Shown: positions 3,886 to 50,639 of the stretch, piece by piece
Numbering within the stretch: the stretch's first letter is position 1
How the letters are laid out: each line of letters starts with the position of its first letter
DNA from: Taxillus chinensis
Lineage: Eukaryota > Streptophyta > Magnoliopsida > Santalales > Loranthaceae
NCBI GenBank assembly: GCA_023512835.1
Contig: CM042084.1
Span: 44,563,609 to 44,627,608, forward strand
Reading direction: 5' to 3'
DNA length: 64,000 nt
Position numbers and translations under genes: made by a program
Notes under the pieces: generated by a model
What the model was told of the DNA's origin: nothing
Database searches by the model: none
The model's input: only the letters and a program-made list of their open reading frames with translations

Positions 3886-4512
3886 CTCTTTAGGCTGCTG
3901 CGGCCGTCGTAAAGAGAGAGAGAGCTAGAGAGAGAGAAGGAAGGGGAGTTCTTTGGTTGCCTTGGGAGCATCTTGCGTGGGGAGGACGGCGTTTAGCGCG
4001 GGAGCAAGGAAGATCTGCTTTAAGGTAGGGGTTCTGTCTCACCTGATCTGTTCTGGGGTTAGGCCCTGTGTAGAGGATTTATAGAGCTTCTATTGTTATT
4101 GTTATACTATTTATATGTAAATTCATATAGGTGTGACCTCCTATATGAATGTTGGCCTTCAATGGCGGTTTTTGATGTTTTCTGGTGTTGGATGGTGAGT
4201 GCATATTAAGTGTTCGATAAAATGCCTGTGTGAATATGTCTGTGTGAATATGCCTAGTAGGTGTTTGATAATATGCCTGTGTGGCTGGGTTTGTGGGTTT
4301 GTGAATGTATGCTTGTTAAGCGTTAGGGTAAAATACCTGTGAGACTCTGCATGCCAGGTGTTTGATTTTATGCCTGATAGTCATGCGAACTAAGTGTTTG
4401 GTATTATGCCTGTGAAAGTGTGTATGCTACGTGTTTGGTTTAATGCCTGTGTGTGACCTTGTATGTTGTGTTTGTGGAACCCGGTGGTTGTGGAAGCCCG
4501 GGACTAGAATTA

Positions 4513-4930
4513 TTAGCTTTGTGTGGCTAAGCCTATATAGCCGTGGATATGTTAGCCCATGTGGCTAAGCCTATATGACCGTGGATATGTTAGCCCGTGT
4601 GGCTAAGCCTATATGGCCGTGGATATGTTAGCCCGTGTGGCTAAGCCTGAGAGGTTGTGGATATGTTAGCATTGTGTGGCTAAGCCTGAGTGATTGTGGA
4701 TATGTTAGCCCGTGTGGCTAAGCCTGAGTGGTCATGGATATGTTAGCCCGTGTGGCTAAGCCTATATGGCCGTGGATATGTTGGCCCGTGTGGCTAAGCC
4801 TGAGAGGTCAGGGATATGTTAGCCCGTGTGGCTAAGCCTGAGTGGTCATGGATATGTTAGCCCGTGTGGCTAAGCCTATATGGCCGTGGATATGTTAGCC
4901 CGTGTGGCTAAGCTTGTATGGTCGTGGATA
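4513..4930 (+). repeat. 38-bp minisatellite, 11 units (E3 5' LTR)
   Basis: Eleven tandem units of TTAGCCCGTGTGGCTAAGCC + TATATGGCCGTGGATATG. Each unit contains the short inverted repeat TTAGCC/GGCTAA. Three variants alternate (TATATGG, GAGAGG, GAGTGG) in the same order as in the 3' LTR, so the array was copied whole during reverse transcription. Confidence 0.93.
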
Positions 4931-5406
4931 GGTGTGTTCCGTGTGATTGTGGAATACAACCTATTTATATCTTATTGTCACTACACTGCACCTGTACACA
5001 CCCTCATGTAGACGCTAGGAGCATGGGATGGGTTGGGGAGACATGATCCCTACTGAGCTGTGGTTGCTCACCCCTCCCTCTATGTTGTGTTTTCTTTCGG
5101 GAACATACGGGCGTTAGGTGGGACCCCAAGGTGGAAGACCTTATTTACTTTACTTGTCTACCATTTATGTTATTTTTATGGGAATTGATGTAACCCCAGT
5201 GGGGATGGATTGAAAAGAGGATTTTGTTGTAATAAAGACTGTTTTGGATTGTGGATTGCTTTTATGAACTTTACTTTCTTGAATGTGTTGTGGATGTTTA
5301 AAATGTTATATTCGGGGTTTGCACCCTAACCCCTTTGCCCTCCGTGTGGGTACAAGGGGAGTCACGTACCGGTTTCCTCGGGTTGGAAATCCGGGGTGTG
5401 ACAATA

Positions 5407-9611: not shown

Positions 9612-11789
9612 TGTAATGACCCGTGTGTAAGAAGTTAACCACAAACACCTTGGATGTTGGTGCACAAGTTTGAGGTAAGAGATGAGCCCAAGAGGGGACC
9701 TTTGGGAGGTGCGGGTGACAAGTGATAACGTACCTTTATGCCCTAGGTAGATGCTATGCGTATGCAGACGGTTTTAAGCCGTTTTGGCTGATCTTGGAGC
9801 TCACTTTTGATAGGGTAGATGGCCTCAATCAATTGGCGTGCAAGAACAAAAGTTTCTTAGAATGAGGTCCTCTACCTACCACAAAAATTTCAGAGCATTT
9901 GGAGCTGCACGTGAATTCACCCATTTCACGTGCAAGCATATTTTTGTTTCTCGACCTTTACAAGATGCAAGGAGGCTTGGGGTGAAGTTTGAGTGCATTT
10001 GGAGCTGCATGCCAATTGGGGAATTGGCGTTCAAATTGGCGTGCGAGCGGGTTTTTGCATGGTTGCCTTGGTTTTGTCATTCTAATCATCTTTTCCCAAA
10101 GGACCATGTTGGAATTGTGACTATTTTGGTGTGTATAGATATGGGAAGGTCATAGCTTGTTCCATCAAAACTACGTCGTTTTGATGCTTGGGATTCACTT
10201 AATCAAAACTACGTCGTTTTGATGTTATGTTGTCTATATAAGGAGGAGAAGCCCTCTGTTTTAGGTTTAGGGTTCTCTTTAGTCTGCCGCCGCTCGTCGA
10301 GAGAGAGAGAGCTAGAGAGAGAGAAGGAAGGGGAGTTGCTAGTTGCTGCCTGGGAGCATCTTGCGTGGGGAGGACGGCGTTTAGCGCGGGAGCAAGGAAG
10401 ATCTCGCTTTAAGGTAGGGGTTCGTCTCACCTGATCCGTTCTGGGGTTAGGCCCTGTGTAGAGGATTTATAGAGCTTCTATTGTTATTGTTATACTATTT
10501 ATATGTAAATTCATATAAGTGTGACCTCCTATATGAATGTTGGCCTTCAATGGCGCTTTTTGATGTTTTCTGGTGTTGGATGGTGAGTGCATATTAAGTG
10601 TTCGATAAAATGCCTGTGTGAATATGTCTGTGTGAATATGCCTAGTAGGTGTTTGATAATATGCCTGTGTGGCTGGGTTTGTGGGTTTGTGAATGTATGC
10701 TTGTTAAGCGTTAGGGTAAAATACCTGTGAGACTCTGCATGCCAGGTGTTTGATTTTATGCCTGATAGGCTGTGCGAACTAAGTGTTTGGTATTATGCCT
10801 GTGAAAGTGTGTATGCTACGTGTTTGGTTTAATGCCTGTGTGACCTTGTATGTTGTGTTTGTGGAACCCGGTGGTTGTGGAAGCCCGGGACTGGAATTGT
10901 TAGCCTGTGTGGCTAAGCCTATATAGCCGTGGATATGTTAGCCCGTGTGGCTAAGCCTATATGGCCGTGGATATGTTAGCCTGTGTGGCTAAGCCTATAT
11001 GGCCGTGGATATGTTAGCCAGTGTGGCTAAGCCTGAGAGGCTGTGGATATGTTAGCCCGTGTGGCTAAGCCTGAGTGGTTGTGGATATGTTAGCCCGTGT
11101 GGCTAAGGCTGAGTGGTCATGGATATGTTAGCCCGTGTGGCTAAGCCTATATGGGCGTGGATATGTTAGCCCGTGTGGCTAAGCCTGAGAGGTCGTGGAT
11201 ATGTTAGCCCGTGTGGCTAAGCCTGAGTGGTTGTGGATATGTTAGCCCGTGTGGCTAAGCCTATATGGCCGTGGATATGTTAGCCGTGTGGCTAAGCCTC
11301 GTATGGTTGTGGATAGGTGTGTTCCGTGTGATTGTGGAATACAACCTGTTTATATCTTATTGTCACTACACCGCACCTGTACACACCCTCATGTAGACGC
11401 TAGGAGCATGGGATGGGTTGGGGAGACATGGTCCCTACTTGAGCCGTGGTTGCTCACCCCTCCCTCTATGTTGTGTTTTCTTTCAGGGAACATACAGGCG
11501 TTAGGTGGGACCCCAAGGTGGAAGACCTTATTTACTTTCTTGTCTACCATTTATGTTATTTTTATGGGAATTGATGTAACCCCAGTGGGGATGGATTGAA
11601 AAGAGGATTTTGTTGTAATAAAGACTATTTTGGATTGTGGATTGCTTTTATGAACTTTACTTTCTTGAATGTGTTGTGAATGTTTAAAATGTTATATTCG
11701 GGGTTTGCACCCTAACCCCTTTGCCCTCCGTGTGGGTACAAGGGGAGTCACGTACCGGTTTCCTCGGGTTGGAAATCCGGGGTGTGACA
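9612..11789 (+). repeat. 3' LTR of E3
   Basis: Same termini, length (2178 bp) and order of parts as the 5' LTR. The E7-like promoter block begins at 9723, TATATAA is at 10235-10241, and a GA-rich leader is near 10300. Followed directly by the TSD. Confidence 0.93.
10900..11315 (+). repeat. 38-bp minisatellite, 11 units (E3 3' LTR)
   Basis: Same unit, copy number and variant order as the array at 4513-4930, with a few substitutions. Open frames crossing it are artefacts. Confidence 0.92.
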
Positions 11790-16973: not shown

Positions 16974-18092
16974 TGTCACGCCCCGGATTTCCAACCCGAG
17001 GAAACCGGTACGTGACTCCCCTTGTACCCACACGGAGGGCAAAGGGGTTAGGGTGCAAACCCCGAACATAACATTTTAAACATCTACAACACATTCAAAA
17101 CAGGTAGGGTTCAATAAAGCAATCCACAATCCAAAATAGTCTTTATTACAACAATCCTCTTTTCAATCCATCCCCACCTGGGGTTACATCAATTCTCATA
17201 ACAATAACAAATAGTAAACAAGTAGGGTAAATAAGGTCTTCCACCTTGGGGTCCCTCCTAACGCCTGTATGTTCTCGAAAAAAAAACACAACATAGAGGG
17301 AGGGGTGAGCAACCACAGCTTCAGGTAGGGATCATGTCTCCCCAACCCATCCCATGCTCCTAGCATCTACATGGGTGTGTACGGGTGCAGTGTAGTGACA
17401 ATAAAATGTAAACAGGTTGTATTCCACATTCACAAGGCACACACCTATCCACGACCTCACAAGGCTTAGCCACACAAGCTAACATAGCCACGACCGCTCA
17501 GGCTTAGCCACACGGGCTAACATATCCACAGCCTCTCAGGCTTAGCCACACAGGCTAACATATCCACGGCCTCTCAGGCTTAGCCACACGGGCTAACATA
17601 TCCACAGCCTCTCAGGCTTAGCCACACAGGCTAACAGACAGTCCCGGGCTTCCACAGCCACCGGGTTCCACAAACACAGCATACAAGGTCACCCAGGCAT
17701 ATTATCAAACACATAGCATACACACTTTTACAGGCATAATACCAAACACTTGACATGCATACATTCACAAACCCACAATCCCAGCCACACAGGCATATTA
17801 TCAAACACTTGATATGCACTCACCATCCAACACCAAAATACATCAAAAACCGCCATTGAAGGCCAACATCCATATAGGAGATCACACCTATATGGATTAC
17901 ATATGTATATATAACAGATATGACCCATAATCTGCCCTAGAACCCTAGGACAGAGGAGGATTTAGGAAGAACAGAACCCCTACCTCAAGTAAAACGCAAC
18001 AACACAGCACTGTCCCGATCCCACGTCGAACGCTGTCCACCCACGAAGCACCGACCACCCACGCAAGACGCCCGGCAGCAACCAGGAGCTCT

Positions 18093-24208: not shown

Positions 24209-25324
24209 TGTCACGCCCCGGATTTCCAACCCGAGGAAACCGGTGCGTGACTCCCCTTGTACCCACACGGAGGGCAAAGGGGTTAGGGTGCAAACCCTGA
24301 ACATAACATTTTAAACATCCACAACACATTCAAAACAGTAGGGTTCAATAAAGCAATCCACAATCCAAAATAGTCTTTATTACAACAATCCTCTTTTCAA
24401 TCCATCCCCACTGGGGTTACATCAATTCTCATAACAATAACAAATAGTAAACAGTAAGGTAAATAAGGTCTTCCACTTTGGGGTCCCTCCTAACGCCTGT
24501 ATGTTCCTGAAAGAAAACACAACATAGAGGGAGGGGTGAGCAACCACAGCTCAGTAGGGATCATGTCTCCCCAACCCATCCCATGCTCCTAGCATCTACA
24601 TGGGTGTGTACAGGTGCAGTGTAGTGACAATAAAATGTAAACAGGTTGTATTCCACATTCACAAGGCACACACCTATCCACAGCCTCACAGGCTTAGCCA
24701 CACAGGCTAACATAGCCACAGCCACTCAGGCTTAGCCACACGGGCTAACATATCCACAGCCTCTCAGGCTTAGCCACACAGGCTAACATATCCACGGCCT
24801 CTCAGGCTTAGCCACACGGGCTAACATATCCACAGCCCTCTCAGGCTTAGCCACACAAAGCTAACAGACAGATCCAGGGCTTCCACAGCCACCGGGTTCC
24901 ACAAACACAGCATACAAGGTCACCCAGGCATATTATCAAACACATAGCATACACACTTTTACAGGCATAATACCAAACACTTGACATGCATACATTCACA
25001 AACCCACAATCCCAGCCACACAGGCATATTATCAAACACTTGATATGCACTCACCATCCAACACCAAAATACATCAAAAATCGCCATTGAAGGCCAACAT
25101 CCATATAGGAGGTCACACCTATATGGATTACATATGTATATATAACGAGATATGACCCATAATCTGCCCTAGAACCCTAGGACAGAGGAGGATTTAGGAA
25201 GAACAGAACCCCTACCTCAAGTAAAACGCAACAACACAGCACTGTCCCGATCCCACGTCGAACGCCGTCCACCCACGAAGCACCGACCACCCACGCAAGA
25301 CGCCCGGCAGCAACCAGGAGCTCT

Positions 25325-27308: not shown

Positions 27309-28959
27309 CGATAACGTGCATTTTATGCCGTTATTCTAGTGTTTATTTAGGATATTTAAGAGCATGATTAGAGCCTTATTGCTTCATATATCATATATAT
27401 TTGCTCTAACCCCTAGGAAGATGCTAGTTGCAAATACATGCGTTTTTAAGCTGTTTTGGCAGATTTTGGACCTCACTTTTGACTAGGTAGATGGCCTCAA
27501 ACAATTGGCGTGCAAGAACAAAAGTTTCTTAGAATGATGTCCTCTACCTACCACAGAAATTTCAGAGCATTTGGAGCTGATTTGGAGCTGCACGTGAATT
27601 CACCCATTTCACGTGCAAGCCTATTTTTGCCTCTCAGGACTCTACAGGGATGCAAGGAAGCTTGGGGAGAAGTTTGAGCTGATTTGGAGGTGCACGTGAA
27701 TTCACCATATCACGTGCAAATTGGCGTGCGAGAGATATTTTTGGACCGATCCTATCGTTTTTCTATGCTGATCATTTGTTCCTGAAGGCCCAAGTCCAAA
27801 TTGTGGATGGAAGATAGAGATTTTAAAGTTTCGAGTGTTACTTATCAAAACTACGTCGTTTTGATAGATGGGCTAGGTTACACACCTCAAAGCCCATCCA
27901 AACTCTATAAATACAAGCCTCCACGCCTCTGCTAGCCATACCTAACCCCCCCTACACGTTTTTAGAGAGAGAGAGGCTCCACGACTTGGAGGTGCTCCTT
28001 GACCTAGGAGAGTAGCCGTCGTCGCCATCGCAGCAGCCGTTGCGGATTTTGGAGCCTGGATTTGAAGCTTTGCTTGTGCGCGTGATCAAGAAGAAGATGT
28101 TTAGCTTTTCTGCTTTGTGTTTGCTTGTAATCATGCGTGAGTAGTCTTTTAATCTAGGGGAGCAATGTAGCCCCCTTGTTGCTTTGCTTTGTGTTTATGA
28201 ATATTTGGGTTTGGATGATTGAGTTTTGCATGTTTTATGAATCTGTTCTTAATCTCTATCATTGGATCTACACCTTGGTATTTTTAACCCTAGTCTGGGG
28301 CGGATTGAGATTCATAACTTATTTGTAATTAGTGTGATCATTATCCTTTTGCAAGTATGATTTATTGGCTTTGCATGTTTGTGTGTTTAGATGACCATTC
28401 CTGGCATACAACTCTTAAAAGGATCTCAATGACCATTTGTTGTCCTTGGCTTATGTTTAGCATGTTTTCAATCGACAACCCTAATACCATGAACCAGGAG
28501 AGATAACATTGGGAGGTGAAATTGTGACCCTAGATGCTTTTAATCCTTGAATCTTAATCTTAAAATCAGTTTACTTTCTTTATTTATTCAGAAAACCAAA
28601 TAAAAATTAGATCTTTAGTTTAAAAAAAGAAAACTTTTTGCCAAGACATTTTATAGAACAAGAGTAATTGGGTGCTTTGATTTGAGAACTAGAAAACTAG
28701 GCTAATCCCTGTGGGTTCGACCCCTTGCTTGCTGCTATTCTTTTAGTGCAAACTTAGGGAATTTATTATCTTGAAGAGAGATTTAACGACATTAGCTAGC
28801 TCTTTTAGAGAGGCTAAAAAATCTCGTCTGTCGGACTCGCACGTAAGATTGGGTTATCATGTGCATTGTCACTTGCAAGCCGTTTTTGGCTCAAATGTAC
28901 TCCATTTTTGCTCAAATTTCACTGCTAGTAGGGCCCTCTTCAAGGTACAAAATGTGATA
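27309..28959 (+). repeat. 5' LTR of E7
   Basis: Starts CGATAACGTGC (3' LTR has TGATAACGTGC) and ends AATGTGATA (3' LTR AATGTGACA). Promoter part: CACGTG inverted repeats (about 27592-27720), an ACGT near-palindrome at 27844-27865, TATAAATA at 27906-27913, then a GA-rich leader. The rest is non-coding. Confidence 0.9.
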
Positions 28960-30851: not shown

Positions 30852-31350
30852 TTGTTCAAGAAGCTTGAAATTAATATTCCGATTGTGGAAATCTTGGAGC
30901 AGATGCCTAGGTACAGAAAGTACATTAAAGATTTTGTGACAAAGAAGAGGAAATATGGGGATCATGAGATGGTGGCGATCACCAACGAGGTGAGCAAGTG
31001 TTGTTCAACGAGTTTGCCCATCAAGCATAAAGATCCGGGCAGCTTTAATCTCCCTTGTGTGATTGGCAATGCACCGCAGCGACGAGGCCCTATGTGATTT
31101 AGGGGCCAGCATCAATTTGATCTCCTTCGCTTTGTATAAGCGGCTTGGGCTTAAGGGTATGAAGCCCACTTCCATATCATTGCGGTTTGTTGATCGGTCT
31201 CCTGGAAGGCCTGAAGGGATAATTGAAGACGTGTTAGTCAAAGTGGGCTCCTTCATATTTCCAGCGGACTTTGTTGTTTTGGAGATGGAAGAAGATAGAG
31301 GAGTTCAGCTACTCCTTGGAAGACCGTTTCTCGAACGGGTTGTGCATTGA
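30852..31350 (+). pseudogene. pol: Aspartic protease of E7
   Basis: Two frames. FKKLEINIPIVEILEQMPRY and LPIKHKDPGSFNLPCVIG precede the active site LCDLGASINLISF (about 31086-31124); the DLGAS form is usual in Athila/Tat elements. PEGIIEDVLVKVG and LLLGRPFL complete the fold. A 1-bp shift lies at about 31075, right before the active site. Confidence 0.85.
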
Positions 31351-32612: not shown

Positions 32613-33080
32613 GAAGTTTCCTTGGCCATGCTGGCTTTTATAGGAGATTCATTAAGGACTTCTCAAAAATTGCAAAACCCATGAGTAGGTTGTTAGAAAA
32701 AGACACAAGCTTTGAGTTTAATGCAGATTGCTTAGAAGCTTTCAACATCCTCAAGGGTAAGTAAGTCACCGCACTGTTATAGTCACACCTGACCGGGCTC
32801 AACCTTTTGAGCTAATGTGTGATGCGAGTGATTATCCTGTGGGGGTAGTCTTAGGGCAAAGGCGAGAAAAGGTGTTTAGGGTCATTTACTATGCTAGTAA
32901 GACCTTAGATGATGCTCAACAGAACTATACCACCACCTAGAAAGAGTTCTTAGCTGTGGTTTATGGTCTGCAACAAGTTTAGACCCTACCTTTTGGGGTC
33001 TAAAGTCATTGTTTATACTGATCATGCTGCATTGAAATATTTCTTTGCTAAAAAAAGAAGCTAAGCCACGCTTGATTAGG
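32613..33080 (+). pseudogene. pol: RNase H of E7
   Basis: Read directly from the bases: FLGHAGFYRRFIKDFSK (shared with E6), CDASDYPVGVVLGQRREK near 32820, YYASKTLDDAQQNYTT ended by an in-frame TAG at about 32938, then YTDHAALKYFF near 33015 after further shifts. The catalytic Asp residues in CDAS and YTDH are still readable. Confidence 0.8.
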
Positions 33081-34497
33081 TGGGTTCTCCTCTTACAGAA
33101 TTTGACCTTGAAATTAGAGACACAAAGGGAGCCCTAAATTCTGTGGCTGATCACCTCTCCCATGTGGAGAATGCACCTAAGTCTCTACCCATTGTAGATG
33201 ACTTTCCTGATGAGAAGTTGTTTGAGGTGCATCATCTTCCTTGGTTTGCCGACATAGCAAATTATTTAGCCACCGGGTTCATACCCAAGCGGTTAGACTA
33301 CCACCAGAGAAAGAAATTGGTAGTGGATGCTAAGAAATTCATTTGGGAAGACCCAATTCTTTATAGGAGGTGTCCGGACCAAATCATTAGAAAGTGTGTC
33401 CTTGAGGAAGAAGTAGATGACATAATACATCATTGTCATGCATCACATTATGGGGGCCACTTTGGGGTGCAGAGAACTGTGGCTAAGATCATGCGGTGTG
33501 GCTTTTATTGGCCTCACATGGTGAAAGACACCTATGTCTACATCAAAAAGTGTGATAGATGTCAAAGGGTAGGTGGTCTATCTAGGAAAAATGAGATGCC
33601 ATTAACCTGGAATCCTTCCAGTTGAAATTTTTGACATTTGGGGCATTGACTTCATGGGGTCATTCCCCAATTCGATGGGTTTTCATACATTTTGCTTGCT
33701 GTGGATTATGTGTCTAAGTGGGTAGAAGCTATTCCTACTAGAGTGAATGATGCTAGGGTTGTGACTCACTTCCTTACTAGGAACATCTTTAGCCGTTTTG
33801 GGACACCAAAGGCTATAATCGATGATGAGGGTAGTCATTTCTGCAGCAAATTGTTTGATAAATTATTGAACAAGTATGGTGTCACTCATAGGAAGTCTTT
33901 AGCTTACCACCCACAAGCTAATGGACAAGCGAAGTGTCCAACAGGGAGATTAAGGCCATTTTAGAGAAAACTATTGGAGCCAATAGGAAGGATTGGTCTC
34001 AAAGGCTTGATGAAGCCTTATGGGCATATAGGACAGCTTACAAAACTCCCATTGGGATGTTACCTTACCGTATTCTATATGGTAAGGCATGTCACTTTCC
34101 TGTGGAACTAGAACACAAGGCTCATTGGGCCTTGAAGAAGTTAAATTTTAACCCACAAGAGATCAAGGAGCTTAGGATGACTCAATTAATTGAGTTAGAT
34201 GAGCTTAGGTTGGATGCCTATGATAGTGCTAAATTTTACAAAGAAAGAACTAAGAAATGGCATGATAGGCAACTCAACAATGAACCTTTAACCTTAGGAC
34301 AGAAAGTTCTTCTATTTAACACAAGGTTGAGGTTATTTCCTGGCAAATTAAGGTCCAAGTGGATGGGACCTTTTGTGATAGTTAATAAGAAGCCATATGG
34401 GAGCTTTGAGCTCCAAGTCGTAGATGGCAAGAAATTTTGGGTGAATGGCAATAGGCTGAAACCATACTTTGATTCAACTCGAGAGGGAGATAGTTGA
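33080..34497 (+). pseudogene. pol: Integrase of E7
   Basis: Zinc-binding HHCC region HCHASHYGGHFGVQRT ... CDRCQ (about 33433-33564), then the core with first Asp in LAVDYVSKWVEA and second in IIDDEGSHFCSK. The third acidic residue is hit by a 1-bp deletion: YHPQANGQA is followed by a shifted frame at about 33930, exactly where Glu should come. The C-terminus (33934-34497) is open: [45 protein letters not shown]. No chromodomain, as expected for Athila. Confidence 0.88.
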
Positions 34498-35379: not shown

Positions 35380-36708
35380 ATGGTGCGCACAAGGAGGACT
35401 GGCCAGGAGGAGGTGCACTCACCTAGTGCTGATAGCCAACCTGAGGAGGAGATACTCTTGGGGCATGCTCTTGATATGCAAGCTTTGGAGGCTTCGAGCT
35501 AGGCTGGGCTAGAGAGGTGGCTCTTAAAATTCAAAATCCGGGATTACAAAGGTTAGTATCTGCCCACCTGGCTATTTCCTATTCTCGCCTACAAGAATTC
35601 TATGCATCTGTCTCTGGGAGTGAGGATGAACTGATAGGGGTTGTGCAAGGGGTTTATGTTAGGATTACCCCTGAAATTATTAGACATTGCTTTAACCTCC
35701 CTGAACCCAGTGATAGCTTCCCTCAGCTAAGCCTAGGAGAATTTGGTACTGCATGCAACTATGCTAGAAAATTTCAAAGTCGAAGGCAGTTTACCAAGAA
35801 TGGTTTTGTTGGAAAATTTAGATGCCTAGCCTACCTGGTAGGGAAATGCTTATTGATTCGGACCGGTGGGCTAGATAGTGTGCCTAAGCCACACCTGGAG
35901 TTCATGTATAGCATTGATCATATGCTAAATGTGGATTGGGCCACTACCATTTTTAAATGGTGGAAGAAAAACTCATCAAAGCAGATAAATGGCAGATTTT
36001 TGTGTTTGATATTTCAAAGCATGCCTGCTTTGCATTTTTCCTCCATGGATACCATCACTTTTCCTTCTCACTGGGTGTTAAGAGTATTGCATGCTGAAGG
36101 AGGTTTGGGGGTCGGTACCAGAGGTCATTGGGCAACCAATGTTCCTCCTCCATCACGGCCCGTAAGGCACGGCGTTCATGTGGAGCGATCTGCCGACTTT
36201 GCAAGGGAGACCTCTCCTCATATGGATCAAAGGAAGTAGACTCTATACGGACTCACTGCCATGTACATGCGGTTCAACGTACACAAGGAAGATATTTTCA
36301 ATTTCTTTCAAGGCATTAGTGGGCAAGTAGTGAGCGAAGTGGAGGTCATCAATTGGGCGATCACTAATGGGCACATCACTAGTGCCCAATTTGAAGAATT
36401 AATGGCTCTCATCTCTCGGAGACCAACAAGCTACTTCACAACCTAGAACCAGAGCATGGGAGGCTCCAAGATGTAGCCGCTCATGCATCACCTAGAGCAT
36501 GGGAAGCCCCGAAGCTCCTCCTGCTGCATCTACCGAAGCTTGGAGGCAAGAAACACAGCAACTCAGGGAGGCAAATGCCAGAACCCAACGCGAGGTGGAA
36601 GCCCCGAGGAAGAACAACAAAGAAGTTAAAGGCCTCCTAGGCAAAATCTGGAAGGCTTTGAGCAAGAGGAAAGCATCAAAATGTTCTCCTATAGTGGAGA
36701 TATCCTGA
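35380..36708 (+). pseudogene. Accessory gene of E7, N-terminal and middle part
   Basis: ATG at 35380 (MVRTRRTGQEEVHS). The frame runs 40 codons to TAG at 35500, but coding continues without interruption in the neighbouring frame (open from about 35484 to 36239), so a 1-bp indel near 35495 is likely. The region LQEFYASVSG, GVYVRITPEIIRHCFNLPE, LAYLVGKCLLIRTGG, FLCLIFQ has the layout I associate with the family annotated as putative plant transposon protein, which accompanies several plant mobile elements; the match is by eye. A further shift leads to 36261-36446, and then a predicted coiled coil (ETQQLREANARTQREVEAP, 36499-36650). No transmembrane segment or signal peptide is seen, arguing against an envelope protein. 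Confidence 0.65.
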
Positions 36709-37768
36709 TGAAGAACCCTCTCCATCCCCCGAAGATTCCTATCCAGCCCAGGCAGATCCACCTCAACCAAAATCTTCAGCTCGGCCATCCCACTATCACC
36801 CGAGAGGAGGCGAGCCAAGAACAGGGTATTCACCCTTCCGGCCTCAAGAGGAGACAGAGCCAGCAAGGGTATTCACCCTTCCGGCCTTTTATTGATCCTG
36901 CATATTCTCAGGCTCCTGGTGCCTGCTATACTTCCTGTCTCTTGGGGTGCATACATGCCCGCTGAACCTGAAGATCTACTTGGCCCTCCTGTCCATTTAA
37001 TCATTAATCCAGCCTTATCATCCGATGAGAGCCAAGCAAGATTTGAAGAGTTCATCAATTCCACGGTTCGAGGGGCTCGCTTTATACGGGATAATGATAT
37101 CTTCACCCCTTTTAGCTTAAAGAGGATCTCCGAGAATGAATATCTCTACGCCGACGAGATAGACCTCTTCTCAGGACCATGCGCTATGTAGTGGAGGCCG
37201 AGCCTCATAACTACCTCTTAGCTCGGTACACTTCCATCATGCTTGTGTGAGCTTTTCAATCAACCCTTGTCCGAAGAGGTGTGGCCCCAACGCATCAATG
37301 GTGAGAATGAAGGGCACCGCCCTTGGCATGGTATGCATGAGGTGCCGATTCCGGTGCACATTGACCGCCACTATGTACTTGTCCGTTTGAATCGGATGTA
37401 GGACATGCCGTGCTATATGATCCAAGCCAAGGCGAAGGGTTTGCTAGACGGAAAAGACAGTTAGTGCATGGGTTCATCAAACGAATGAAAGTGGCAATGA
37501 TCAAAGAAGGATTGTTGCAGGATAAGCTCCCTCTTATTCACCTTAACGAAATGGAAATCCCTCGACGGCCTGACCAATTCAGTGTGGGATCTTTGTTTGC
37601 TACTACATGATGGCTATTCTGCAAGGGAAGGAAACTTGGGAAGTGCGCGGCGAGATGTCGGTTGACTTTGTGGCTCAAGTACGACGAATGGTGGCCAACG
37701 TCATCTACTATTACAAGTGTGCCAAACCAGGGGTAAGTGTTTTTCTTACTCCCTATTTTATACCATGA
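36709..37768 (+). pseudogene. Accessory gene of E7, C-terminal Ulp1/SENP-like protease
   Basis: A proline-rich linker with a duplicated phrase (GGGTATTCACCCTTCCGG at 36824 and 36867) leads into a region in several frames that together resemble a C48 cysteine protease, which cleaves SUMO or similar from proteins. Landmarks: YLYADEIDLF (about 37139); VPIPVHIDRHYVLVRLN with candidate catalytic His at 37369-37371; VLYDPSQG with candidate Asp at 37419-37421; IPRRPDQF with candidate Gln; and, after a 1-bp loss, CGIFVCYYMMAILQGKE with candidate Cys at 37583-37585. Order and spacing H-D-Q-C fit the family. The end of the frame is TGA at 37766. The calls rest on motif recognition; the fold was not tested. 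Confidence 0.65.
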
Positions 37769-39262
37769 GGACATAGCATATTTTAAGTGTGGTGTATGGG
37801 GAGTGACTTGAGCCACTTGCTTGTCTTTTATGTTGTGATTGCATGTTTCATTTAATAATAAAAAAAAACTGTTTTTAGTTGCATGATTGTTTGAGTTGTT
37901 TGCTTGAATGATTTGCTTGTGGAGACATGGATATTAAGTATGCAATTTTGGCTTAAAATTTAATTTTTATGCCACATTAGTATCATGTTGTGATAAGGGT
38001 GTTAAAGTAGTTAAAATGTGCTCTGAATTGGTTTAATCATGTCTTTATCTTTTGAATGATATCACCATGTTTTTGGAGCTGAGTTTTGAATATTAGCTGA
38101 GCATGAAATGCTATGATAGACCTAAGTAACCCTTAAAGTTGAGTGAAAAAGAAATGAAAAATGAGAACAGCTTCTTTTAGCCTTTGAGTGCCATTTTAGG
38201 GTATGGGTAATAGTTTGATTTGCTACTCTTCTTGCATTCAACATTGGTTATTTAATGGTAGGAGTCAAGTAAGCATGTGATTACTTATTAGTGCTCAGTG
38301 TTTGGTGTGTGGAGTTAGGATGCAAGACCTTTAAGTCACTTTGACTTCCTATGTATCCTAATTTTTGTTTGTTGTGTTGTAAATATAAAAGGCTGTGATA
38401 TAGAATGTGAAAAAGCCATCAATTAATTGGAAAATGGGATGTGAGACATCAATGAATTTGTCTCTCCTTATGTAACGAAATGGCAAGGGGTATGCATTAG
38501 AAAAATCAGTCTTATTTATGTGTTATGTGAGTAAAAAAAAGAGTGAATAATCCATCAAGGGAGAGCATAAAATGCAACCTTGTAAGGTTATTACTTAAAA
38601 AAAAGAGAAAAAAAAAAAAAAAAAAGAGAAAGATTCGAATAAAAGCCACACCGGCTTGATGTTTATGTGTGATCGTTTAGATTTGTAGCCACATTGGCTG
38701 AGTTGTGTTTTGTTTTAAGAATGTTGAGCTCAATTCTTTGGCTCATGTTTTGTTTATTGAGTATAGACTAGCGTGTGAGTTCAAATAAAGTTGAATAGAG
38801 GGTGTGTTTTCTTTGATGAGCACAATAGGGAACTCTCATGATTGCTTGGCAAGTACTTAATCAACAATGATGGCGAGCGTAGAGATAGAGTTTTCCATCC
38901 ATTGTTCATTGATATGTATTGGGCTTGAGAATTATTATATTTGAGTGAGGCTGCTTATCCTTGGTAAGAACTTAAAGGGAAACTAGGTGCTATTTTATCA
39001 TGGATTGCTTACTCATATCTGAAATTTAAGTGGTGATATTGCATGGTTGTTGGACTAGGGATATGGACATGAATGAACTAAGCTATGACTCATTTTGATG
39101 CTTAAATTCCCATTTCATCATGATAGAGTTGTATGCTTAGGAAACCATGATTCTCTTTGATTGTTATTTTATTTTTCTTCCGTTTGATTGCGTGTTTATT
39201 TTATTTTTGCATGCTTGTATGTTTTTGCTTGAGAACAAGCAATGGTTCAAGTGTGGTGTATT
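37769..39262 (+). other. 3' untranslated region of E7
   Basis: AT-rich and non-coding, collinear with the E6 fragment at 25740-26905 (reverse). GGTAAGT just upstream (37731) resembles a splice donor and is conserved in position in E6. The PPT position before the LTR reads AAGTGTGGTGTATT (39249-39262), a weakened form of the AAGTGTGGGGG tract I expect in this lineage. Confidence 0.75.
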
Positions 39263-40908
39263 TGATAACGTGCATTTTATGCCGTTATTCTAGTGTTTAT
39301 TTAGGATGTTTAAGAGCATGATTAGAGCCTTATTGCTTCATATATCATATATATTTGCTCTAACCCCTAGGAAGATGCTAGTTGCAAATACATGCGTTTT
39401 TAAGCGTTTTGGCAGATTTTGGACCTCACTTTTGACTAGGTAGATGGCCTCAAACAATTGGCGTGCAAGAACAAAAGTTTCTTAGAATGATGTCCTCTAC
39501 CTACCACAGAAATTTCAGAGCATTTGGAGCTGATTTGGAGCTGCACGTGAATTCACCCATTTCACGTGCAAGCCTATTTTTGCCTCTCAGGCCTCTACAG
39601 GATGCAAGGAAGCTTGGGGAGAAGTTTGAGCTGATTTGGAGGTGCACGTGAATTCACCATATCACGTGCAAATTGGCGTGCAGAGATATTTTTGAACCAA
39701 TCCTATCGTTTTTCTATGCCGATCATTTGTTCCTGAAGGCCCAAGTCCAAATTGTGGATGGAAGATAGAGATTTTAAAGTTTCGAGTGTTACTTATCAAA
39801 ACTACGTCGTTTTGATAGATGGGCTAGGTTACACACCTCAAAGCCCATCCAAACTCTATAAATACAAGCCTCCACGCCTCTGCTAGCCATACCTAACCCC
39901 CCTACACGTTTTTAGAGAGAGAGAGGCTCCACGACTTAGAGGTGCTCCTTGACCTAGGAGAGCGCCGTCGTTGCCGTCGCAGCAGCCGTTGCGGATTTTG
40001 GAGCCTGGATTTGAAGCTTTGCTTGTGCGCGTGATCAAGAAGAAGATGTTTAGCTTTTCTCGCTTTGTGTTTGCTTGTAATCATGCGTGAGTAGTCTTTT
40101 AATCTAGGGGAGCAATGTAGCCCCCTTGTTGCTTTGCCGTGTTTATGAATATTTGGGTTTGGATGATTGAGTTTTGCATGTTTTATGAATCTGTTTCTTA
40201 ATCTCTATCATTGGATCTACACCTTGGTATTTTTAGCCCTAGTCTCAGGGCGGATTGAGATTCATAACTTATTTGTAATTGGTGTGATCATTATCCTTTT
40301 GCAAGTATGATTTATTGGCTTTACATGTTTGTGTGTTTAGATGACCATTCTGGCATACAACTCCTAAAAGGACCTCAATGACCATTTGTTGTCCTTAGCT
40401 TATGTTTAGCATGTTTTCAATCGACAACCCTAATACCATGAACCAGGAGAGATAACATTGGGAGGTGAAATTGTGACCCTAGATGCTTTTAATCCTTGAA
40501 TCTTAATCTTAAAATCAGTTTACTTTCTTTGTTTATTCAGAAAACCAAATAAAAATTAGATCTTTAGTTTAAAAAAAGAAAACTTTTTGCCAAGACATTT
40601 TATAGAACAAGAGTAATTGGGTGCTTTGATTTGAGAACTAGAAAACTAGGCTAATCCCTGTGGGTTCGACCCCTTGCTTGCTGCTATTCTTTTAGTGCAA
40701 ACTTAGGGAATTTATTATCTTGAAGAGAGATTTAACGACATTAGCTAGCTCTTTTAGAGAGGCTAAAAATCTCGTCTGTCGGACTCGCACGTAAGATTGG
40801 GTTATCATGTGCATTGTCACTTGCAAGCCGTTTTTGGCTCAAATGTGCTCCATTTTTACTCAAATTTCACTGGCTAGTAGGGCCCTCTTCAAGATACAAA
40901 ATGTGACA
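39263..40908 (+). repeat. 3' LTR of E7
   Basis: TGATAACGTGC...AATGTGACA; nearly identical to the 5' LTR, with few substitutions and short indels, so the insertion is fairly young. ACGT near-palindrome 39795-39816, TATAAATA 39857-39864. Confidence 0.9.
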
Positions 40909-42917: not shown

Positions 42918-43440
42918 TGTCACGCCCCGGATTTCCAACCCGAGGAAACCGGTACGTGACTCCCCTTTTTACCCACACGGAGGGCAAAGGGGTTAGGATA
43001 CAAACCAAGAACCGAACATTTTAAACATTCACAACACATTCAAGAAAAATAAAGTCCATCAAGCAGTTCCACAAACCAAATCAATAAAGTCCATCAAGCA
43101 GTCCACAAACCAAATCGGTCTTTAATACAAAGTCTTCCTTTCAATCCATCCCCATTGGGGTTACATCGATTCCCATAATAAAATAACATAAACAATAAAA
43201 TAAATAAGGTCTTCCACCTTGGGGTCCCACCTAACGCCTGTAGGTTCCTGTAAAGAAAACAACATGGTAGGAGGGGTGAGCAACCACACTCGGTAGGGAT
43301 CATGTCTCCCCAACCCATCCCATGCACCTAATATCTACATGCCTTGTGTACAAGTGCTGTGTCGTGATACAATTATTCCACCAGATATAGTTACAAGCTA
43401 TAACAAAGAAACACAATCATACATGGGCTAGTACATAAAC

Positions 43441-43730
43441 ACTCCCGGGCTTCCACAGCCACCGGGTTTCAAGAACAGTCCCGGGCTTCCACACCCACCG
43501 GGTCCCACAAAATAGTCCCGGGCTTCCACAACCACCGGGTTCCACAAACAGTCCCTGGCTTCCACGACACCGGGTTCCACAAAACAGTCCCGGGCTTCCA
43601 CAGCCACCGGGTTCCACAAAACAGTCCCAGGCTTCCACAACCACCGGGTTCCACAAAACAGTCCCGGGCTTCCACAACACCGGGTTCCACAAAACAGTCC
43701 CGGGCTTCCACAACCACCGGGTGTACAATC
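43441..43730 (-). repeat. 37-bp minisatellite, 8 units (E8 3' LTR)
   Basis: Plus-strand unit CAGTCCCGGGCTTCCACA + ACCACCGGGTTCCACAAAA, eight imperfect copies. E3 has a single copy of this unit (about 4475-4505). Long open frames here (43417-43856, minus) are periodic artefacts. Confidence 0.92.
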
Positions 43731-43861
43731 AAACACGCAAGACACATGGCCATACAGGCATAACATCAAACACTTAGTATGCTTAGTCACACAGGAATAA
43801 CATCGAACACTTAGCATGCATATATCCACAAGCTCATACACCCACCACACAGACATAATCT

Positions 43862-49754: not shown

Positions 49755-50280
49755 TATTGTCACGCCCCGGATTTCCAACCCGAGGAAACCGGTACGTGAC
49801 TCCCCTTTTTACCCACACGGAGGGCAAAGGGGTTAGGATACAAACCAAGAACTGAACATTTTAAACATTCACAACACATTCAAGAAAAATAAAGTCCATC
49901 AAGCAGTCCACAAACCAAATCAATAAAGTCCATCAAGCAGTCCACAAACCAAATCAGTCTTTAATACAAAGTCTTCCTTTCAATCCATCCCCATTGGGGT
50001 TACATCAGTTCCCATAATAAAATAACATAAACAATAAAATAAATAAGGTCTTCCACCTTGGGGTCCCACCTAACGCCTGTAGGTTCCTGTAAAGAAAACA
50101 ACATGGTAGGAGGGGTGAGCAACCACCGCCTCGAGGGATCATGTCTCCCCAACCCATCCCATGCACCTAATATCTACATGCCTTGTGTACAAGTGTTGTG
50201 TCGTGATACAATTATTCCACCAAGATATAGTTACAGGCTATAACAAGAAACACAATCATACATGGGCTAGTACATAAACA

Positions 50281-50489
50281 CTCCCGGGCTTCCACACCAC
50301 CGGGTTTCAAGAACAGTCCCCGGGCTTCCACGACCACCGGGTCCCACAAAATGATCCCGGGCTTCCACGACCACCGGGTTCCACAAAACAGTCCCAGGCT
50401 TCCACGCCCACCGGGTTCCACAAAACAGTCCCGGGCTTCCACGACCACCGGGTTCCACAAAATAGTCCCGGGCTTCCACGCCACCGGGT
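50281..50489 (-). repeat. 37-bp minisatellite, 6 units (E8 5' LTR)
   Basis: Same CCCGGGCTTCCAC unit as 43441-43730 but six copies instead of eight. Confidence 0.9.
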
Positions 50490-50639
50490 GTACAAGCAAA
50501 CACGCAAGACACATGGCCATACAGGCATAACATCAAACACTTAGTATGCTTAGTCACACAGGAATAACATCGAACACTTAGCATGCATATATCCACAAGC
50601 TCATACACCCAGCCACACAGACATAATCTAACACACTGG

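Follow-up and report, generated by a model that had tools for sequence, protein, structure and literature searches.

As far as the accessible parts of the reports cited in this paper go, C48 (Ulp1-type) protease domains are already known in Mutator-like elements (MULEs) and in Ginger1, and a Transposase_32 domain (PF20167) is already known in the 3' additional open reading frame (aORF) of Athila retrotransposons. The Ulp1-bearing VANC/Kaonashi (KIU) genes of Vandal MULEs have a reported anti-silencing role (PMC13317346). Ginger1, which occurs in animals, has a C-terminal Ulp1 domain and an integrase that groups near Athila/Tat (PMC2836005), and the ORF(+) of sunflower Athila 14 contains Transposase_32 (PMC11728184). 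The present study concerns E7, a retrotransposon with long terminal repeats (LTRs) in the window, i.e. the whole stretch of 64,000 nucleotides that was analysed (C1:44563609-44627608, contig CM042084.1) in the 520.9 Mb genome of Taxillus chinensis. E7 belongs to an abundant Athila-type family that carries a long aORF in which a linker joins a Transposase_32-like domain to a C48 protease domain at the C-terminus, and this aORF is under purifying selection. A C48 domain in an Athila-type element had been proposed in an earlier, sequence-only reading of the window, and the proposal is borne out by profile hits, the alignment of His, Asp, Gln, and Cys, the fold, the place after the integrase in four of four copies, and purifying selection. 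Two points go beyond that reading: the domain belongs to a longer frame with a Transposase_32-like part, and comparable genes occur outside the E7 family.

E7 has LTRs and, in the order of the Athila lineage, an aspartyl protease (narrowly below the Pfam cut-off), a reverse transcriptase (RT), and an integrase; as in Athila-type elements, a forward additional ORF lies between pol and the 3' LTR. The Athila label, shared with the sequence-only reading, is a presumptive assignment. The sunflower ORF(+) (PMC11728184) likewise lies forward between pol and the 3' LTR of a Gypsy element and has a PF20167-like domain, but it is 487 amino acids (aa) long with Transposase_32 alone named from Pfam in the accessible text, whereas the frame of the E7 family has 808 aa and a C48 end. 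The KIU/VANC genes are also plant transposon genes with a C48 domain, but they reside on MULE DNA transposons. E7 has LTRs, a retroviral-type pol with RT and integrase, and a Transposase_32-like partner domain, and therefore its aORF is not a KIU/VANC-type MULE gene; no MULE family was among the matches of the frames scanned for Pfam domains. Ginger1 resembles E7 in combining a Gypsy-type integrase and a Ulp1 domain within one element, but Ginger1 elements are DNA transposons without LTRs in which Ulp1 is fused to the transposase (integrase), whereas E7 has LTRs and carries the domain in a separate ORF.

The C48-bearing aORF starts approximately 0.9 kb beyond the integrase. In one natural copy (L082) it is an uninterrupted frame of 808 aa, from the start region MVRTRRTGQEE to the end of the C48 domain, with a Transposase_32 match of 24.6 bits (Pfam cut-off 45). 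Four pieces of the E7 copy searched apart gave no Pfam C48 match up to E=10, and therefore E7 alone is no proof of C48. In a frame-tolerant comparison of the raw DNA on both strands, made with a profile of four C48 sequences and without shuffles, the C48 region ranked first in the window with 25.3 bits vs 20.3 bits for the next. The PF02902 check suggested by the sequence-only reading thus failed with the unjoined window pieces but succeeded with nine of ten natural frames from the same genome, which had been chosen for being open (36.4-42.5 bits, cut-off 20.7); the sole miss, L004, has a frame that stops before the Gln and Cys. A sequence search of PDB gave nothing relevant with two window pieces, and the frame of another copy, L008, had SENP1 as its best match (E=0.007). 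An initial structure prediction, from eight near-identical rows, was uninformative, with a predicted local distance difference test (pLDDT) score of 35. In the fold comparison, the modelled C48 domain has the Ulp1/adenain fold, and its closest structural matches are SUMO proteases rather than viral processing enzymes. Ulp1, SENP1, and SENP2 (PDB 1euv, 2iyc, 1tgz) have the same fold, with His, Asp, Gln, and Cys in the same order and similarly spaced, but at 12-15% identity in the fold alignment. No relatives were found in a set of 5.8 billion proteins at cut-offs of E up to 1, 0.001, and 10, and none in a scan of viral contigs.

Concerning the catalytic residues, the His, Asp, and Cys lie in three forward frames of E7 where the sequence-only reading had placed them, but the Gln that it had marked, that of PDQF, stands three residues before the Cys in open copies, whereas the oxyanion Gln stands six before. 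In the motif PQQPNGYDC of Ulp1, the oxyanion Gln lies at this distance from the Cys, and its counterpart in the family is the second Gln of PQQPDQFSC. His, Asp, Gln, and Cys follow each other at Ulp1-like spacing, and Gln and Cys are invariant, in all eight copies that are open over the C48 domain and in a 15-row alignment (A3). Among 40 copies aligned to the L008 frame, His and Asp were present in 40/40 and Cys in 35/40.

The 39 copies other than E7 were scored at 91-96% identity. A protein search gave 8860 first-look candidates, of which 101 were scored, yielding 102 match rows at 71-100% identity; 32 of these rows, including one short piece, are free of internal stops, a fraction that is not representative of the family since the rows are the best-scored ones. 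Integrase was found upstream of three other copies at 96.6-97.3% identity, together with RT, so that the C48 region follows the integrase in 4/4 copies, E7 included, and it precedes an LTR in 2/2. The possibility that the segment is an insertion private to E7 is ruled out by the 39 copies, the 102 rows, and this shared place. Between E7 and two copies (L008 and L004), identity is 97.3% in the integrase, 95.5-96.0% in C48, 93.7-94.3% in Transposase_32, 92.1-93.8% in the linker, and 90.1-90.3% in the 3' untranslated part.

Comparison of substitutions points to purifying selection on the aORF. The ratio of nonsynonymous to synonymous substitution rates (dN/dS) between two subgroups of 29 and 11 copies, split by identity rather than by a tree and with non-independent copies inside each, is 0.16 (0.11-0.26), well below 1. 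It is 0.10 for codons 1-149 and 0.29 (0.13-0.62) for the core codons 150-255, for which 4/1000 bootstraps reached 1 or more; with codons at CHG trinucleotides dropped, the values are 0.13 for the whole and 0.26 (0.09-0.79; 9/1000 bootstraps) for the core. Since decay after insertion and assembly errors shift dN/dS towards 1, the reported value is cautious. Among biallelic sites within 283 codons, synonymous, nonsynonymous, and stop variants numbered 35, 69, and 6 when private, 26, 30, and 1 in two to four copies, and 35, 19, and 0 in five or more copies (private vs five or more, Fisher p=2e-4; p=4e-4 with CHG sites masked).

The favoured reading, with a probability of roughly 0.5, is that the C48-bearing aORF encodes an active isopeptidase that eases silencing or frees a factor. 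The protease would strip SUMO or a SUMO-like tag off nuclear proteins, to which end its Transposase_32 part would direct it to the element DNA or to a nuclear partner. Tag removal would then weaken the silencing that the host imposes on the element, or release a factor that the element needs for transcription or integration. The fold, the retained catalytic triad, and the evidence of selection suggest tag removal, and the silencing step is suggested by analogy with the Ulp1-bearing VANC (KIU) genes as described in the accessible part of the report (PMC13317346). Several points weigh against it. Only 22/40 copies retain the Gln at six residues before the Cys (gap in 9, Arg in 7, Pro in 1, stop in 1), and E7 itself has Arg in its place, with Arg-Arg for the Gln pair. 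The DCG of Ulp1 is SCG in 14 rows of transposable element (TE) type, and the Trp after the catalytic His is Tyr in the E7 family; therefore, the enzyme may act on something other than SUMO. When restricted to the C48 core, the contrast in variant frequencies loses significance (p=0.28, or 0.30 after masking of CHG sites). E8, an Athila-type relative on the minus strand (55582-41119 and 27310-25743), has the integrase and the 3' untranslated part and lacks the whole aORF, and thus such elements can exist without it.

It is unlikely that the C48 domain instead serves the element's own particle, cutting the aORF protein or Gag in the manner of related viral proteases and leaving host SUMO untouched, since the nearest folds are SUMO proteases, an aspartyl protease segment is already present in the element, and genes with Transposase_32-like and C48 parts occur where no RT/integrase of E7 type was found upstream (3/3 loci, 2.2-3.3 kb) and where there may be no particle at all. 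Retention of the fold as a module that binds SUMO or another partner, with catalysis of little weight, would agree with the Gln in only 22/40 and Cys in 35/40 copies and with the higher dN/dS of the core than of the preceding part (0.29 > 0.10); however, this appears quite improbable, as His and Asp are kept in 40/40, Gln and Cys do not vary in the 8/8 open copies or the 15 rows, and the Gln/Cys stretch contains CHG sites, where indels accumulate. Lastly, a repeated gene of this kind could have been captured once and carried along as a passenger of no benefit to the element, for which its occurrence outside the E7 family and the persistence of E8 without an aORF can be cited. Such hitch-hiking is very unlikely in view of the subgroup dN/dS and of the whole 808-aa frame open in a natural copy; carriage without selection was likewise disfavoured by dN/dS.

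A genome-wide search with PF02902 gave 4308 first-look candidates, of which 150 were scored, all above the cut-off. In a tree of 36 C48 cores, the E7 family groups with L049 (97/85), two other repeated groups are separate, and a branch (100/98) splits TE-type C48 from Ulp1, from SENP, and from L045, a gene of host type; the deeper order is unsure due to long branches. At four loci outside the E7 family (L060, L047, L055, and L049) a Transposase_32-like stretch lies upstream of C48 (E 2e-25 to 3e-9), and therefore the pair also exists outside the family. The loci looked at in the two further repeated groups carry such a stretch upstream as well. Upstream of Transposase_32 at L060, L047, and L049, no RT/integrase of E7 type was found within 2.2-3.3 kb at E up to 0.01, by a comparison that would miss a decayed or very different pol; at L055/L078 approximately 0.14 kb upstream was covered, which says nothing on integrase. 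Around three of these loci, the pieces examined on the two flanks shared no terminal repeats. The pair may have been captured by the retrotransposon or may have escaped from it. That a mobile module of Transposase_32 and C48 acts as a general anti-silencing deSUMOylase of plant TEs, a retrotransposon counterpart of the Vandal VANC that would help explain the size of the family, is a tentative and somewhat doubtful idea. Apart from these, L045 on the small contig C191 has an open frame of 1092 aa with a C48 match of 84 bits and groups with Ulp1 and SENP8; it is probably a host SUMO protease.

The sequence-only reading had described E7 as broken by frameshifts, and these breaks are indeed present in the assembly, although the CHG-site indels leave their status in the plant in doubt. 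Relative to L008, 36/40 copies have a frame-changing indel and 13/40 a stop. In the C48 region (36892-37768), one-base indels make up 175/195, and 173/195 indels lie within approximately 2 bases of a CHG trinucleotide, vs 202/849 positions in the background. The same leaning is seen between E7 and two other copies (7/9 and 8/8 indels), in the E7 LTR pair (9/12, background 11%), in the integrase (4/5, 6/7, and 7/8, background 10%), in the Transposase_32 part (8/11), and in other LTR pairs of the window (12/14, 15/20, and 7/16), and it is least marked in the 3' untranslated part (4/17, background 5%). These three other pairs, at 3.4/9.8, 17.0/24.2, and 43.0/49.8 kb, show single-base indels at CHG sites too. 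Homopolymer slippage was rejected as the cause, since run lengths at one-base indels match the background. Plants methylate CHG sites in transposons, and modified bases make nanopore base calling slip; therefore, most of the CHG-site indels are read here as probable systematic base-calling or assembly error. Some or all of the frame breaks of E7 may thus be absent from the plant, and in that case E7 may be less damaged in the plant than the assembly suggests, and its LTR age would be an overestimate. In some plant assemblies TE frames may look broken without being so, and LTR ages taken from them may be too old.

The features of E7 are listed in the table; no target-site duplication was identified at its LTRs. 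E7 seems to have inserted into E8, which is interrupted by E7 and another element. Similarity of E8 to E7 is weak (approximately 60%) up to 35267 and good from 37732, with approximately 60 bases between. A splice-donor-like GGTAAGT lies at 37732-37740, where the aORF ends and good similarity to E8 restarts; this might reflect splicing of the aORF or, alternatively, a conserved untranslated signal in this region. An envelope-less family, Diaspora of soybean, has been described in the endogenous plant retrovirus lineage, as far as the accessible text goes. Tandem repeats of 37-38 bases (4406-5047, 10792-11394, 17386-17685, 24614-24875, 43434-43785, and 50273-50516) sit inside three probable LTR pairs of elements other than E7, and the repeats of the first pair are related to those of the second, on the opposite strand.

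Table. Features of element E7 (positions within the window)
Feature	Position	Strand	Remarks
5' LTR	27310..28957	+	97.9% identity over 1652 columns to 39264-40907; limits approximate
Aspartyl protease segment of pol	31063..31347	+	Pfam Asp_protease_2 E=2.4e-4, slightly short of the cut-off
Reverse transcriptase segment	31916..32452	+	Pfam RVT_1 E=1.8e-22
Integrase, three frame pieces	33080..34497	+	Pfam Integrase_H2C2 1.7e-15, rve 1.2e-13
aORF (additional 3' ORF), in pieces	35380..37736	+	End approximate; L082 frame as guide
Transposase_32-like N-terminal domain of aORF	35475..36239	+	Pfam PF20167 E=3.8e-6, 27.3 bits; cut-off 45 bits
Peptidase_C48 (Ulp1-type) catalytic region	37222..37733	+	Three frames; PF02902 on natural copies, frame-tolerant profile score
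Catalytic His codon	37369..37371	+	His in 40/40 copies; aligned with HW of Ulp1-type proteins
Catalytic Asp codon	37419..37421	+	Asp in 40/40 copies
Gln-pair place	37563..37568	+	Arg-Arg in E7; other copies have the oxyanion Gln at the second position
Catalytic Cys codon	37583..37585	+	Cys in 35/40 copies
3' untranslated stretch	37769..39263	+	90% identity in L008 and L004, below coding parts
3' LTR	39264..40907	+	Pairs with 27310-28957; LTR likewise downstream in L010

In the literature searched, which includes PMC7264820, PMC11963269, PMC6317226, PMC9289625, and PMC5408684 in their accessible parts and leaves most subscription papers outside, no C48 domain was found in plant LTR elements, Athila included; such proteins may sit unnoticed in genome annotations. 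A survey of 121 genomes reported 15 extra domains in LTR elements, and C48 is not among the approximately nine that the accessible text names (PMC9289625). The same report describes an m6A demethylase domain in orchid LTR elements, in which a Gypsy element likewise took up an enzyme domain, but a 2-oxoglutarate dioxygenase and not a protease. In the literature consulted, an assigned activity is lacking for most additional ORFs of plant LTR elements, the orchid domain being one exception. A C48 domain under selection gives another additional ORF a testable biochemical function, and it ties LTR retrotransposons to the theme of tag removal in Vandal MULEs and Ginger1.
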